A stretch of 34,640 nucleotides of DNA, taken from contig NZ_JAHOPH010000037.1 in assembly GCF_019798055.1 (NCBI RefSeq), forward strand, positions 1 to 34,640. The letters are read 5' to 3'. The notes beneath the pieces were generated by a model. It was given only the letters and a program-made list of their open reading frames with translations. It had not been told where the DNA came from and did not search any database. Numbering within the stretch: the first letter of the stretch is position 1; each line of letters begins with the position of its first letter. Below, one piece after another: positions 6,492 to 22,147 of the stretch. This DNA is from Salsipaludibacter albus (lineage in GTDB: Bacteria > Actinomycetota > Nitriliruptoria > Nitriliruptorales > Nitriliruptoraceae). A program made the position numbers and the translations under genes.

Positions 6492-6519
6492 ACGAGGGTG
6501 CCCGAGACGGCACCCTCGT
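6492..6519 (+). terminator. Intrinsic-type terminator hairpin after rplS
   Basis: An 11-bp perfect stem (6492-6502 with 6509-6519, core CGAGGGTGCC / GGCACCCTCG) with a 6-nt loop stands 24 bp after the rplS stop. There is no U-run, as is usual in high-GC actinobacteria. It probably ends or attenuates the rplS transcript before lepB. Confidence 0.65.
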
Positions 6520-11704: not shown

Positions 11705-11766
11705 CATCCGGTCATCGGCTCCCACCGGACGCGGGGGCGTCCCGGCCGATGCCGAGGGCCCACATC

Positions 11767-12756
11767 GTGCGACACCACGCCGTCGTCACCTCCCTGTCCT
11801 GGATCCCCTCCGAGGCCATCCGCGGTGCCATGCGACTGCCGTTCGTCCTGGGGATCTCGCACTACGACCCACCACCGCCATCCACGCTCGACGACCTCGA
11901 GGCGCTGCGCTCGGCCGACCGGTTCCGGTTCGCCAACGAGCTGTCCGGCTGGGTCGAGGTGGACGACGACGGCGCGATCGTGGACGCGGGCTACGACGGT
12001 GCGGGCCACATGGGTGCGACGACGGCCACGGTCGGCTCCCGCTCGGTGACCCTTCCCGGCGTGGTCTACCCGACGATCCAGCACCCGGTCGAGCAAGGGG
12101 ACGGCTGGGTGCGCCTGGTGCAGACCACCGGTGGCCGGACCGGCTTCCCCCTGCCCCGGACCGTGGACCGCTCACCGTGGGTCCAGGTCACCGCGCCGAC
12201 CGTGTGGACCACGCTCGCGCTGACCCTGCAGGCCGACGGCGGGGCCACCCACGAACTGGTCGGCTCGTCCGCCTTCCCGCGACACTGGATCTACGACGGC
12301 GAGGGTCGGCTGGTCCACAAGACTGGGACCCTGGACTTCCGTGGTTGGTCCGGCGAGTCCTTCGGGGAGCGCAGCCCGTGGGGTGGGTACGAGCAGGAGG
12401 CCCTGGTCGCCGAGGCCGAGACCCAGCTCGAGCGCACCCTGTCCGAGGAGATCATGCAGGGAGGGGAGCGGCCCACGATCCGACGGGTCGACGCCGACGA
12501 CACGTTGACCGTCCAGGGGACTCCGGGCGAGGAACTCCTGCTGCTCCTCGACGGGATCGTGGACGTCGAGGTCGACGGGCGGGTCGTCGCCGAGATCGGC
12601 CCGGGTGCCGTGGTGGGCGAACGAGCGTTGCTGGAGGGTGGTCGTCGCACCGCGACCCTGCGGGCGCGCACGCCGGCCACCGTCGCGGTCGCGACCGCCG
12701 ACCAGCTCGACACGGCGGTGCTGCGTGAACTGGCCGCGGGTCACCACCGCGAGTAG
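11767..12756 (+). CDS. Protein with C-terminal cyclic nucleotide-binding domain
   Basis: This is a 329-residue protein in two parts. Residues 1 to about 225 form an unrecognised region with conserved-looking stretches (SLSWIPSEAIRGAMRLPF, ADRFRFANELSGW, HWIYDGEGRLVHKTGTLDF). The last 100 residues read as a cyclic-nucleotide-binding domain whose phosphate-binding cassette, GERALLEGGRRTATLRA, keeps the key Glu, Arg, Ala and Thr. No HTH is present, so it is not a standard Crp regulator; the nucleotide probably controls the N-terminal part. I chose GTG 11767, 8 nt after GAGGG; an ATG at 11749 would add six residues. It may be an enzyme or adaptor switched by cAMP or cGMP. Confidence 0.75.
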   Translation: MRHHAVVTSLSWIPSEAIRGAMRLPFVLGISHYDPPPPSTLDDLEALRSADRFRFANELSGWVEVDDDGAIVDAGYDGAGHMGATTATVGSRSVTLPGVVYPTIQHPVEQGDGWVRLVQTTGGRTGFPLPRTVDRSPWVQVTAPTVWTTLALTLQADGGATHELVGSSAFPRHWIYDGEGRLVHKTGTLDFRGWSGESFGERSPWGGYEQEALVAEAETQLERTLSEEIMQGGERPTIRRVDADDTLTVQGTPGEELLLLLDGIVDVEVDGRVVAEIGPGAVVGERALLEGGRRTATLRARTPATVAVATADQLDTAVLRELAAGHHRE

Positions 12757-17410: not shown

Positions 17411-18600
17411 GCCGGGGATCCGGCCCGCCCGGACGTGGCGACGGCGAGGACCACGCGACGAACGACCGCGATCCCTGGGAGGCGGTCGCGGCCCTCGGCA
17501 CCGACCCGGCCATGTTGGCCGCGGTCGTCCGACGGGCGGCGGTCGACCGCCCGGGGCTCGCCGCCCACTGGCGCCGGCTCGTGGCGGACGAAGTGGCGAT
17601 GGCGGTGGCCGTCCGCGAACTCGCCGCTGCGCCCGTCCTGGAGGTCGGGCCGGGGGACGGCCAGGCACGGACGTGGCGCCGGGAGGGGGTCGTCGTCGCG
17701 CTGGCCGGCGATCCCGGCATGCCGGACCGGTTGGTGCGCCACGGGGTCGCGCCACCCTGGCTGGCGTTGCGGGGCCCGATCGAGGCGTCCGTCGGGCCAG
17801 CCGTCGCGATCGTCGGTGCGCGTCGGGCCACCGGGTACGGCACCGGCGTCGCCGCGTGGTTGGCGGAGGAGGCCGCGCAGGCCGGGGTCCGGGTCGTCAG
17901 CGGGGGCGCGGTCGGGATCGACGCCGCCGCGCACACGGCCGCGCTGGGTCGGGCCGGCGGGACGACGGTGGTGCTGGGATGTGGCCACGACGTCGCCTAC
18001 CCACGACCCCACGCCCGCGAGGGGGGCCTGTTCGCCCGGGTGCTCGATGCCGGCGGGGCCGTGCTGTCCGAGGGTCTGCCCGGCGACCCGCCCCGCGCCC
18101 ACCGGGTCCGGGCCCGCAACCGCCTGGTCGCCGCCCTCGCCGATGCGATCGTGGTGGTCGAGGGAGGTGCACGGTCCGGGTCGCTCGTCACCGCGGGGTG
18201 GGGTGCCGACCTCGGCATCCCGGTCCTGGCCGTGCCGGGCGACGTGCGTGCACCCGGCTCGGCGGCCAGCCACCAACTCCTGCGCGAAGGGGCCGCCGTG
18301 TGCACCGGCCCGCCCGACCTGCTGGCGGTCGTGCTCGAGGCCGCACAGGACGGGCGCGACCTGGACCACCGGGGCGGCGTCGACGATCCCGCCGGACTCG
18401 GCACGTCGGGGCTGCCCGGATGGCTGCACGACCGCCTGGTGGCGGCATGGCCCCGCCCCGTTCCCGTGGCCCGACTGGTCGAGGAGGGCGGCTCGGGGTC
18501 GGGACCGGTGCTCGCCGCCCTCACCCGGGCACAGGTCGCCGGGACCGTCACCCGTGACGTCGACGGCGTGCGTCTCTGCCGCCGCCCGCCCGACGCATGA
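17407..18600 (+). CDS. dprA: DNA processing protein DprA
   Basis: DprA (397 aa) binds incoming single-stranded DNA and loads RecA during transformation; in non-competent bacteria its role is less clear. The extended Rossmann fold shows VAIVGARRATGYG, VSGGAVGIDAAAHTAAL, VLGCGHDVAYPRPH, RVRARNRLVAALADAIVVVEGGARSGSLVTA (cited in part) and VLAVPGDVRAPGSAASHQLL. A C-terminal winged-helix segment follows (about 345-395). The start GTG 17407 overlaps the comM stop, and the stop overlaps the next ATG (ATGA), so four genes are translationally linked. No comEA/comEC is in the window, so competence cannot be inferred. Confidence 0.95.
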   Translation: MSRGSGPPGRGDGEDHATNDRDPWEAVAALGTDPAMLAAVVRRAAVDRPGLAAHWRRLVADEVAMAVAVRELAAAPVLEVGPGDGQARTWRREGVVVALAGDPGMPDRLVRHGVAPPWLALRGPIEASVGPAVAIVGARRATGYGTGVAAWLAEEAAQAGVRVVSGGAVGIDAAAHTAALGRAGGTTVVLGCGHDVAYPRPHAREGGLFARVLDAGGAVLSEGLPGDPPRAHRVRARNRLVAALADAIVVVEGGARSGSLVTAGWGADLGIPVLAVPGDVRAPGSAASHQLLREGAAVCTGPPDLLAVVLEAAQDGRDLDHRGGVDDPAGLGTSGLPGWLHDRLVAAWPRPVPVARLVEEGGSGSGPVLAALTRAQVAGTVTRDVDGVRLCRRPPDA

Positions 18601-19217
18601 CCGTCGACGGATCGGCCTCGCCGCGGTGCGTCCGGCCAGCGATCGTGCTGACTCGGATCCTGGCGCTGGTGCTGATGCTCGGGGTGCTGGGGGTGCTCGC
18701 GGCGCCAGTCGCCGCCCCGGCTCGGGCTCGGCCGGATCCGGGTGGGGGCGCACCGGGGGTGGGCGACGACAGGATGGCCAGCGCTCCGGTGGGTCCGACC
18801 GACCAGCAGTTCGCCTGGCCCGTGCCCGGCCGCCTCGTCGTGGGGTTCGACCCGCCGCCGGAGCCGTGGTCGTCGGGCCATCGCGGCGTCGACCTGTCGG
18901 TCGTCCACGGCCAGGCAGTCCACGCCATGGCCTCCGGGGTCGTCGGCTTCGCCGGGATGGTCGCCGGGCGGGCTTGGGTCAGCGTCGACCATCCGGACGG
19001 CGTGCGAACCACGGTCGGGCCGCTGTCCGTGGTCGGTGTGGAGGAGGGCCAGGTGGTTCGCCCCGGCCGGGTCGTGGGTGTCGCTGCCGCCACGGCGCAC
19101 GCCGACGCGACCGGCCCGGTCACCGGGCTGCTCCACGTGTCGGCCCGGGTCGACGGGGCGTACGTGGACCCCGCCACGCTGGTGGGCTCGTGGGTCCCGT
19201 CACTGGTCCCGAACTGA
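18597..19217 (+). CDS. Secreted M23-family (LytM-like) peptidase
   Basis: This 206-residue protein has an N-terminal signal or anchor helix (about 15-40) and a C-terminal M23 domain (about 75-200). The first zinc motif GHRGVDL holds His95 and Asp99, followed by the G-x-V-x-A barrel pattern (AVHAMASGVVGFAGMVAGRAWVSV, cited in part). The second motif, normally H-x-H, reads LLHVSAR: only the second His is present. This is seen in other actinobacterial members beside rpsB (an Rv2891-like setting), so some may be regulators of amidases and not enzymes. It starts by ATGA overlap with dprA and ends the operon upstream of the secreted vWA gene. Confidence 0.85.
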   Translation: MTVDGSASPRCVRPAIVLTRILALVLMLGVLGVLAAPVAAPARARPDPGGGAPGVGDDRMASAPVGPTDQQFAWPVPGRLVVGFDPPPEPWSSGHRGVDLSVVHGQAVHAMASGVVGFAGMVAGRAWVSVDHPDGVRTTVGPLSVVGVEEGQVVRPGRVVGVAAATAHADATGPVTGLLHVSARVDGAYVDPATLVGSWVPSLVPN

Positions 19218-19265: not shown

Positions 19266-19281
19266 TGTGTCCATCGTCACA
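19266..19281 (+). promoter_or_regulatory. CRP-type operator of the vWA gene
   Basis: TGTGT-CCATCG-TCACA matches TGTGA-N6-TCACA at 9 of 10 specified bases. Its centre (between 19273 and 19274) lies about 41.5 bp before the start predicted from the -10 box at 19303-19308, the position of a class II CRP activator. The Crp-family gene at 21006 has the matching DNA-contact residues. Confidence 0.55.
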
Positions 19282-19302
19282 TACGGGCCCGGCCGGCACT
19301 CG

Positions 19303-19308
19303 TAGGTT
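19303..19308 (+). promoter_or_regulatory. Candidate -10 box of the vWA gene
   Basis: TAGGTT would give a start near 19315 and a leader of about 60 nt. No -35 hexamer is seen at the expected place; the CRP-type site covers that region, consistent with activator-dependent transcription. Confidence 0.45.
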
Positions 19309-19321
19309 CGCTCTCGTACAG

Positions 19322-19346
19322 GTGACCGCGGGACCCCCGCGGTCAC
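19322..19346 (+). promoter_or_regulatory. Perfect 10-bp hairpin in the vWA leader
   Basis: GTGACCGCGG (19322-19331) and CCGCGGTCAC (19337-19346) pair perfectly around a 5-nt loop. It lies at the 5' end of the predicted leader and 15 nt before the AAGGGG ribosome-binding site. It may stabilise the mRNA, act as an attenuator, or be the terminator of the upstream yraN-comM-dprA-M23 operon. Confidence 0.5.
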
Positions 19347-19374
19347 AGGGGAACCAGGAACAAGGGGCATGCAC

Positions 19375-20880
19375 ATGAAGCGAGCGGTGAAACTGCTCAC
19401 CGTCACGGCCATGGTGGCCACGACCGTCACGTTCGGCCATGCGGCCGTCGCGGACGGCGACCACCCGGCACTGACACCAGAATCCGTCGACGAGATCATC
19501 TTCCCCGGAGGATCGTTCGAAGTCGACAAGACCGTCCACACGCCGGAGATCCCACCGAACCCGGAGATCTACTTCCTGGTCGACACCACCGGCAGCATGG
19601 GTGCCGTCATCAACCAGGTGACGGCAGACATCGGCTCCATCATCGCCCAGGTCCAGGCGGTGCAACCGACCGAGGCGTTCGGGCTGGGCCAGTACAAGGA
19701 CTTCCCGTTCGACGCCTTCGCCTACCAGCACGAGGTCTCCATCGGTGGGGACGTCGGAACGGGCCTCGTCGGCCTGTCGGCCTCGGGTGGAAGCGACGGC
19801 CCCGAGGGGCAGTTCTACGCCCTCGACCGCATCGCCAACACCAACTCGCCCGGCTTCACCGGTGGCGCGACCTCGACGCCGATCGTGGTGTGGATCGGTG
19901 ACGCGCCGGCCCACGACCCGGTCTGTGCCGCGTTCACCGGTGTCGGCGACATCACGGAAGCCAGCGTCACCGCCGACCTGCTGGCGGTCGACTACACGGT
20001 CGTGTCCGTGAGCACCAACACCGGCGGGTATGCCTTCGGTCTGGACGACGACCCCCTCCTCGGCAGCTTTGACTACACCGCCACGTGTGCCCAGGGTGGG
20101 AGCCCCGGCCAGGCGAGCAGGATCACCAGCGCCACCGGCGGCAACGCGCTCAGCGGCGTGAGTCCGGCCGACGTGACCCAGGCGATCCTCGACGTCATCG
20201 CAGCCGTCGAGATCGAGGTCTCGATGACCAGCGACTGCACGTACCCGATCAGCACGACGTTCGACCCCGCGGACCCCGTGGTCGTCGAGAGTGGCGCGGA
20301 CGTCGCGTTCGTCGAGACGATCTCGGTCGCGGCCGACGCCCCGGGCGGGGTCTACACCTGCAACGACTGGGCGCTGATCGACGGTGAGCCGATGGTCGAC
20401 GCAGCCGGCGACATCATCTACGAGACCAAGACCATCCTCGTCCCGGAGAACTTCGTCACCGGCGGCGGCAACGTGGTCGACGGCAAGGGCAAGAACCGTG
20501 TCCACCAGCTCAGCTTCGGTGGCAACGCCGGCTACACCTCCGAGGGTGACCTGGTCGGTTCGTGGAGCTTCAACTTCCACGCCGCCGGGGTGAAGATCCA
20601 CACCACCGAGATCACGGCCCTGCAGTTCTACGACTTCGGGGGCGACCCTGCCCCGCCGGAGGCCGACGCGGACACCGCCGCGATGGTCGCCACCGCGCGG
20701 GTCAGCGTCGACAACGGTGCGTGGCAGGAGGGGTGCACCCTGCACGCAGTGTTCACCGACAACGGTGAGCCCCAGGACGACGCCGTCCTGAGCTTCGACC
20801 TCGACTGCGCTTCGGGCGCCTTCGTCTGGGAGGACCTGACCGGTGGCAACCTTCAGATCCACGACGGCACGAAGGACTGA
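19375..20880 (+). CDS. Secreted von Willebrand factor A domain protein
   Basis: This 501-residue protein has a Sec signal peptide (KR then a hydrophobic core, cleavage probably after HAAVA near residue 26). A vWA domain follows (about 62-285) with the metal-ion site DTTGSMG (Asp70, Ser74), GQYKDFP and IVVWIGDAPAHD; the layout resembles the integrin-beta-like vWA class. The last 130 residues (VTGGGNVVDGKGKNRVHQLSFGG, cited in part; GSWSFNFHAAGVKIHTTEI) look like a beta-rich domain found in several secreted actinobacterial proteins. There is no sortase motif or C-terminal membrane anchor, so it is probably released. I prefer ATG 19375 (AAGGGG 7 nt upstream); ATG 19369 adds two residues. It may bind a surface or ligand in a metal-dependent way. 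Confidence 0.85.
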   Translation: MKRAVKLLTVTAMVATTVTFGHAAVADGDHPALTPESVDEIIFPGGSFEVDKTVHTPEIPPNPEIYFLVDTTGSMGAVINQVTADIGSIIAQVQAVQPTEAFGLGQYKDFPFDAFAYQHEVSIGGDVGTGLVGLSASGGSDGPEGQFYALDRIANTNSPGFTGGATSTPIVVWIGDAPAHDPVCAAFTGVGDITEASVTADLLAVDYTVVSVSTNTGGYAFGLDDDPLLGSFDYTATCAQGGSPGQASRITSATGGNALSGVSPADVTQAILDVIAAVEIEVSMTSDCTYPISTTFDPADPVVVESGADVAFVETISVAADAPGGVYTCNDWALIDGEPMVDAAGDIIYETKTILVPENFVTGGGNVVDGKGKNRVHQLSFGGNAGYTSEGDLVGSWSFNFHAAGVKIHTTEITALQFYDFGGDPAPPEADADTAAMVATARVSVDNGAWQEGCTLHAVFTDNGEPQDDAVLSFDLDCASGAFVWEDLTGGNLQIHDGTKD

Positions 20881-20917
20881 TGCCGACATGACCACGTGAC
20901 CGATCGCGGTCGCCACA

Positions 20918-20949
20918 GGAAGGGTCGGCCCCGCGGGGTCGGCCCTTCC
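20918..20949 (+). terminator. Long terminator hairpin after the vWA gene
   Basis: Bases 20918-20932 pair with 20935-20949 (15 pairs including two G-U wobbles, almost no loop beyond CCGCGG), 37 bp after the vWA stop. Two T residues and CCGG follow, with no real U-tract. It separates the vWA gene from the Crp-family gene. A smaller inverted repeat, GACCG-ATCG-CGGTC, precedes it at 20898-20911. Confidence 0.6.
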
Positions 20950-20968
20950 GGTGGACGTGGACACGCTC

Positions 20969-21005: not shown

Positions 21006-21656
21006 ATGCAGACCGTCGAGTTGTGCATCGAGGCGAACGACGAGCAGGGCCGGGCACGGTCCGTGCTGCACGCCGTGGGTCGGCCGATCGAGCTGGACGT
21101 GGGGCGGGTCCTGTACCGACAGGGCGAGGCCGCGGACGCCCTGGTGCTGGTGGACGACGGTGCGGTCCAGCTGTCGATCGCCGTCGGCGACGGCCAGGAC
21201 CTGGCCATCGCGCGGGTCGACCGAGGCGGCGTCGTCGGGCTGGTCTCGGCCGTGGACGGACAGGCCCATGCGGCGACCGCGACGGTCGTCGACACCGGAC
21301 GGGGGACCGCGGTCTGCCGGCGCCACCTGCGGCGGCTGCTGGCCGACGATCCGCACGTCGCGACCTACCTCCTGCAGTGCCTGACGGCGAACCTGCGCCG
21401 CGCCGACCGCCGGTTGGTGCAGCACTGCAGCAAGACCACCCTCGGGCGGGTCGCCGACCTCCTCGCCACGTTGGACGACGACGCCCATGGCGGGCGGATC
21501 GACACGACCCAGCGCGAGCTGGCCGACTGGGTCGGCGCGACCCGCGAGTCGACCGCCCGCAGCCTCGGCCGGCTGCGCGACCGGGGTGCCATCGCCACCG
21601 GACGTGGTTGGATCGAGGTGCTGGACCGAGACCGCCTGACCGAGGCCACCACGTGA
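21006..21656 (+). CDS. Crp/Fnr-family transcription regulator
   Basis: This 216-residue protein has a cyclic-nucleotide-domain-like N-terminus (about 25-110, ELDVGRVLYRQGEAADALVLVDDGAVQLS, cited in part), a dimerisation helix (about 115-140) and a winged helix (about 145-210). The recognition helix reads GATRESTARSLGRL; Arg180, Glu181 and Arg185 match in pattern, and by chance in number, the bases-contacting residues of E. coli CRP. The pocket segment GGVVGLVSAVDGQAHAATATV lacks the Glu and Arg that hold the cyclic phosphate, so cAMP binding is doubtful. Four Cys residues are present but not in the Fnr cluster spacing. The start is ATG 21006; ATG 20988 is possible. It is coupled to the GNAT gene by GTGA. 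Confidence 0.88.
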   Translation: MQTVELCIEANDEQGRARSVLHAVGRPIELDVGRVLYRQGEAADALVLVDDGAVQLSIAVGDGQDLAIARVDRGGVVGLVSAVDGQAHAATATVVDTGRGTAVCRRHLRRLLADDPHVATYLLQCLTANLRRADRRLVQHCSKTTLGRVADLLATLDDDAHGGRIDTTQRELADWVGATRESTARSLGRLRDRGAIATGRGWIEVLDRDRLTEATT

Positions 21657-22147
21657 CCGACCTGCTCGTCCGACCGGCCGACGCCGGCGACTGGCCGGAC
21701 GTCTGGCCGTTCTTCCGCGAGATCGTCGTCGCGGGCGAGACCTACGCCTATCCCGACGACCTGGCCTCGGACACCGCGCGCGACCTGTGGATGGCGCCGC
21801 CCCCGGACCACTGCGTGGTCGCGGTCGACGACGGCGTGGTCGTGGGCAGTGCGAAGTGGGGGCCGAACCGGCCCGGCCGCGGTGCCCACGTCGCGACCGC
21901 CAGCTTCATGGTCGATGCCGCTGCGCGTGGCAGGGGAGTCGGCCGGCGGCTGGGCGAGCACGTCCTCGCCGCTGCCACGGAGGCCGGGTACACGGCGATG
22001 CAGTTCAACGCCGTGGTCGAGACGAACCACGCCGCGGTGGCCCTGTGGGAGTCGCTGGGCTTCACCGTCGTCGGGACCGTTCCCGAGGCGTTCGACCATG
22101 CTCGACACGGCCGGGTCGGCCTGCACGTCATGCACCGGTACCTCTGA
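21653..22147 (+). CDS. GNAT-family N-acetyltransferase
   Basis: This 164-residue GNAT enzyme would transfer an acetyl group from acetyl-CoA to an amine. The pyrophosphate loop is clear in FMVDAAARGRGVGRRLGEHVL (R-G-x-G-x-G pattern, cited in part), followed by MQFNAVVETNHAAVALWESLGF, which is typical of PhnO/Pat-like small-molecule acetyltransferases. The substrate is unknown. The GTG start overlaps the stop of the Crp-family gene, so the two are likely co-expressed. It is convergent with the nucleotidase gene (9-bp gap). Confidence 0.88.
   Translation: MTDLLVRPADAGDWPDVWPFFREIVVAGETYAYPDDLASDTARDLWMAPPPDHCVVAVDDGVVVGSAKWGPNRPGRGAHVATASFMVDAAARGRGVGRRLGEHVLAAATEAGYTAMQFNAVVETNHAAVALWESLGFTVVGTVPEAFDHARHGRVGLHVMHRYL

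Follow-up and report, generated by a model that had tools for sequence, protein, structure and literature searches.

The window, i.e., the whole 34,640-nt stretch of DNA analyzed here, contains a gene for a secreted vWA protein that lies between an M23 peptidase gene and the genes for a Crp-family regulator and a GNAT acetyltransferase. A palindrome resembling a CRP operator is located in the 151-bp gap between the stop codon of the M23 gene (19217) and the ATG of the vWA gene (19369). The features of the locus are as follows.

18597 to 19217, forward strand: M23 peptidase gene, marking the left edge of the lineage-specific stretch
19266 to 19281, forward strand: TGTGT-N6-TCACA palindrome (TGTGTCCATCGTCACA), predicted operator; 9 of 10 bases of the CRP half-sites
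19303 to 19308, forward strand: TAGGTT, predicted -10 hexamer; sole TANNNT in the gap
19322 to 19346, forward strand: perfect inverted repeat, GTGACCGCGGG-ACC-CCCGCGGTCAC (11-bp arms, 3-nt loop), past the predicted start and ahead of the ATG
19369 to 20880, forward strand: gene for the secreted vWA protein (signal peptide-like N terminus; vWA domain with DTTGS)
19386 to 19401, forward strand: GGTGAAACTGCTCACC, exact GTGA-N6-TCAC core within the start of the vWA coding sequence; core at chance frequency
20913 to 20954, forward strand: long GC-rich palindrome approximately 33 nt past the vWA stop codon; terminator-like, without a T run
21006 to 21656, forward strand: gene for a Crp/Fnr-superfamily regulator (crp) with a TRESTAR recognition helix; cAMP-phosphate cassette apparently lost
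21653 to 22147, forward strand: GNAT acetyltransferase gene, the start of which overlaps the crp stop codon
22157 to 23194, reverse strand: NT5C-type nucleotidase gene, with an uncertain start codon, marking the right edge of the stretch; followed by rpsB

The crp gene starts 0.13 kb past the vWA gene. At the C terminus of the vWA protein, a match to the post-COAP-1 domain fell just under the cutoff, and no obvious anchor was detected. A phage origin of vWA or crp was considered and set aside (no PHROG match for either gene), and no Rfam elements were found in the window.

In a genome of the same genus (G029), M23 and NT5C are adjacent and convergent, and rpsB comes next on that contig; apart from the first bases past the M23 stop codon, the gap between them bears no resemblance to the window sequence. 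Thus, the 2.9-kb stretch from 19218 to approximately 22150, comprising the palindrome, the inverted repeat, vWA, crp, and the GNAT gene, is absent from G029; its gain by transfer appears likelier than its loss in G029. In the G029 assembly, the M23 locus exists in three versions that differ from one another (L106, L107, and L108), probably because of mixed strains in that assembly, and two of these versions carry NT5C at 83 to 84% identity to the window. Two scans of the collection of named genomes turned up distant relatives of Crp but none of vWA. G033 supplied the one other good vWA relative within the class, distant relatives came from the phylum sample, and the genomes searched contained no close vWA orthologue.

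Palindrome and predicted promoter upstream of the vWA gene

The palindrome, which is real as a sequence, differs from TGTGA-N6-TCACA by a single mismatch (center, 19273.5). It therefore has the form of a CRP/GlxR operator, i.e., two TGTGA half-sites separated by a 6-bp gap, at 9 of 10 bases. A TG tract contains the imperfect left half-site and permits the alternative reading ATGTG-N10-CACAT, which shifts the center by 1 bp. Given that TAGGTT is the sole TANNNT in the gap on both strands, the -10 hexamer was not chosen among several. TAGGTT begins 29.5 bp from the palindrome center, which corresponds to the class II arrangement provided that it is the -10 hexamer. With the start predicted at 19315 (-12/-7 convention), the palindrome is centered at -41.5; the alternative purine starts G19316 and A19318 would place the center at -42.5 and -44.5, respectively.

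No -35-like hexamer was detected at a 16- to 18-bp spacing, either by direct reading or by a promoter scan. A sigma-70 promoter with both hexamers was likewise sought upstream of vWA, and the sole scan match was inside the gene. The exact core at 19386 to 19401 was ruled out as a partner operator, as the core pattern occurs at chance frequency and lies in coding sequence.

These results corroborate three statements of the first-pass annotation, namely, the TGTGT-N6-TCACA match at 9 of 10 half-site bases, its center about 41.5 bp before the start predicted from TAGGTT, and the absence of a -35 hexamer. From these three facts together, among them the missing -35 hexamer, the annotation had gone on to suggest strictly activator-dependent expression; this step is unsupported, given that the -35 element is often absent in actinobacteria, and it had overlooked the hairpin downstream of the predicted start and ahead of the ATG. 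WhiB proteins are an actinobacterial hallmark, and a WhiB-family gene in the genome supports an actinobacterial host. Mapping of transcription start sites in Mycobacterium tuberculosis revealed a TANNNT -10 element at 73% of the primary starts and no conserved -35 element (PMC3898074), and a -35 motif was present at 58.6% of the mapped starts in Streptomyces coelicolor (PMC4895711). Because actinobacterial starts often have no -35 element, its absence before vWA says little.

Chance matches, Rex-like operators, and the possible leader hairpin

We estimated how often such a site would arise by chance. A best match of at least 9/10 was present in 0.56% of the dinucleotide shuffles of the 151-bp gap, and a second run of 60,000 shuffles produced 333 sites with at least 9/10. 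A match of at least 9/10 combined with a TANNNT at 29.5 ± 1 bp occurred in 1 of 60,000 gap shuffles, a figure left uncorrected for how many regions, motifs, and placements a reader might notice. Summed over the window's 17 approximate intergenic regions, the probability of at least 9/10 was 0.044, with other motifs uncounted, and matches with up to two mismatches were no more frequent window-wide than expected (5 found versus 8 expected). The genome has 14 sites with up to one mismatch; when each was read on both strands (28 readings), only this site had a TANNNT near 29.5 bp. Since a reader could have picked out many kinds of motif in many positions, we regard the observation as suggestive, not compelling.

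The main rival of the reading as a local operator is thus a chance match, in which a TG-rich stretch happens to precede an ordinary -35-less promoter and no Crp-family protein controls vWA through the palindrome. We consider this a serious possibility, if short of probable. It is in line with the summed probability of 0.044 and with the count of TGTG-N8-CACA in the genome (4.25 Mb in 79 contigs; 97.3% complete), which was not enriched (12 sites versus 14 for the reversed control) and disclosed no TGTG-N8-CACA regulon genome-wide. The site is also not conserved upstream of vWA homologues, with no palindrome match above 8/10 in front of five distant ones; because these homologues are only 32 to 41% identical over the aligned parts, the missing site is weak evidence against an operator. 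On a chance reading, however, the exact class II spacing to the sole TANNNT would be a further coincidence (roughly 1%), and the same lineage-specific stretch contains a Crp-family gene encoding CRP-like base contacts.

In contrast to TGTG-N8-CACA, the longer pattern TGTGA-N6-TCACA with up to one mismatch occurred 14 times in the genome, versus 3 for the control. Three of the sites are perfect ((T)TGTGAAGTTCTTCACAA, (T)TGTGATGTTCTTCACAA, and (T)TGTGACAGATTTCACAA) and lie before or at the start of genes for an NDH-2-type dehydrogenase, a WhiB-family protein, and an ATPase gene 1 (AtpI-like) product. Because the Rex repressor of Streptomyces avermitilis controls atpI, ndh2, and wblE via TTGTGAA-N4-TTCACAA (PMC5355995), we infer that the three perfect sites look like Rex operators. 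Rex would then explain at least part of the excess of TGTGA palindromes, which is no proof of a CRP regulon; the best TGTGA-N6-TCACA matches of this actinobacterium are Rex-like, and taking them for such a regulon would be a mistake. In the extracted loci L004, L006, L009, and L027, the Rex-like operators are at 1501 to 1516, before NDH-2, AtpI-like, WhiB-family, and FAD-dependent oxidoreductase genes, the last of these being in L027, with one mismatch.

The inverted repeat at 19322 to 19346 begins a few bases past the predicted start and ends 22 nt before the vWA ATG. The stretch folds better than 200 of 200 shuffles, and no second perfect copy was found in the genome. If transcription starts at TAGGTT, the hairpin would belong to the vWA leader, where it could stabilize the mRNA or act in attenuation. 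GC-rich hairpins without a T run also follow stop codons at 6492, 20913, 24154, and 24887 and are probably the local form of terminator. Because of this similarity, the hairpin at 19322 to 19346 may be a late or displaced terminator of the M23 gene.

We consider it improbable that another dyad-binding factor uses the palindrome, that the palindrome is a repressor site over the -35 region, or that the leader hairpin rather than the palindrome mainly determines vWA output. Similar dyads are bound by other families, e.g., Rex, and the perfection and folding of the hairpin would suit leader control. However, the palindrome was ruled out as a Rex operator, as no match to TTGTGAA-N4-TTCACAA was found in the window within three mismatches, and the hairpin, given its counterparts past other stop codons, is perhaps just a terminator.

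Crp-family proteins of the genome

The product of the gene at 21006 was confirmed to be a Crp-family protein, as annotated at first pass, by matches to PF00027, PF13545, and PF00325 above the cutoff, i.e., by a cNMP-binding fold together with the Crp helix-turn-helix (HTH_Crp_2) that defines the superfamily. Its TRESTAR motif reads R-E-xxx-R and aligns with Arg180, Glu181, and Arg185 of CRP, which contact TGTGA (PMC11253593, PMC12531629). The phosphate cassette reads GLV...HAA versus GEL...RTS in the CRP of M. tuberculosis and has no equivalents of Glu72, Arg82, and Ser83, which makes cAMP binding of the usual kind unlikely. Several relatives within the class keep GEL...PRSA; the cassette thus seems to have been lost in the lineage of the window. 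Another cNMP-fold protein is encoded at 11749 to 12756 of the window; it contains a cNMP-binding domain and in part matches the mycobacterial acetyltransferase Pat.

The Crp helix-turn-helix family had four matches over the cutoff in the genome. One of these (L016) was excluded because it reads as another type of regulator and has no cNMP domain, leaving three Crp-type proteins. Besides the 21006 protein, these are L014, which has R-E-xxx-R and no cassette, and L013 (G000:C2), which has a CRP-like cassette (GEQ...RRTA) but R-P-xxx-R, with Pro at the Glu181 position. None of the three Crp-type proteins of this 97.3% complete genome combines a cAMP cassette with R-E-xxx-R/K. Synthesis of cAMP or cGMP is possible in this organism, as its genome encodes three class III cyclase domains.

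A cAMP-dependent global regulator of the CRP/GlxR type, encoded elsewhere in the genome, could draw on such cyclases, with L013 as the protein whose cassette resembles that of CRP, and the palindrome fits the Crp motif of S. coelicolor, GTG-N6-GNCAC (PMC10033298). This motif was nevertheless discarded as support for Crp, since it is too common (27 matches in the window). Moreover, L013 is without the Glu181 contact, the other two Crp-type proteins are without the cAMP cassette, and CRP-like sites are not enriched beyond the Rex-like ones. We therefore consider such a regulator very improbable, and the earlier suggestion of control by cAMP or by GlxR/CRP found no support in the 21006 cassette, in the base contacts of L013, or in the form of a regulon.

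Candidate local operator and comparison with known systems

Our preferred reading, held tentatively and with close to half of our confidence, is that the palindrome is the operator of the neighboring Crp-family protein, which probably acts independently of cAMP. A dimeric Crp-family protein, most likely the 21006 product, would occupy the palindrome at -41.5, next to the TANNNT -10 hexamer, and from there activate vWA in the class II manner, bringing in RNA polymerase without the need for cAMP. The site, its geometry, its linkage to crp, the CRP-like recognition helix, and the apparent loss of the cassette can be read from the sequence, as can the joint presence of the site, vWA, crp, and the GNAT gene in the stretch that G029 does not have. 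Binding by the 21006 protein, activation rather than repression, and the identity of the signal are what we infer from them.

Arguing for a local operator are the rarity in shuffles of a 9/10 site with class II spacing, the R-E-xxx-R contacts of the 21006 protein, the shared lineage-specific stretch, and the precedent of DdrI, a CRP-family protein that binds TGTGA-N6-TCACA independently of cAMP (PMC11253593). Arguing against it are the gap before the crp gene, which contains no second such site (best, 6/10), the surroundings of most relatives of the 21006 protein, which have no 9/10 or core site nearby, and the lack of the site near the five vWA homologues, together with the 4% summed chance of a 9/10 match and the imperfect left half-site in the TG tract. 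A more elaborate version, in which a self-contained module acquired by lateral transfer uses a Crp protein without a cAMP pocket and with CRP specificity to drive vWA from a class II site, a strong leader hairpin adding a second layer of control, seems to us unlikely. At most, the finding is an ordinary candidate for a local control site.

The locus resembles the class II CRP promoters of Escherichia coli in that the palindrome is 41.5 bp upstream of the predicted start, the -10 hexamer is at the standard distance, and no -35 hexamer is recognizable. It differs from them in that the start is a predicted one, in that no cAMP-competent CRP with matching contacts was found in the genome, and in that the host is a high-GC actinobacterium, in which -35 elements are commonly missing. 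As in the sites of Corynebacterium glutamicum GlxR and S. coelicolor Crp, TGTGA-like half-sites are separated by a 6-bp gap, and the palindrome fits NGTG-N8-CACN as well as GTG-N6-GNCAC. Unlike the GlxR consensus TGTGANNTANNTCACA, it has a central AT instead of TA, and, unlike in the GlxR/Crp systems, neither a GlxR orthologue with a cAMP cassette and R-E contacts nor a regulon was identified in the genome. The Rex operators of atpI, ndh2, and wblE in S. avermitilis share the TGTGA...TCACA half-sites and so surface in CRP-type searches here; the vWA palindrome has five mismatches to TTGTGAA-N4-TTCACAA.

Compared with DdrI of Deinococcus radiodurans, the 21006 protein has lost more of the cassette, with no equivalent of Glu72 or Arg82. 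Like DdrI, which binds TGTGA-N6-TCACA without cAMP, the 21006 protein has a CRP-like recognition helix and may likewise bind without cAMP. If the local-operator reading is true, the 21006 protein would join the CRP-type regulators known to be uncoupled from cAMP, in this case tied to a single neighboring target.
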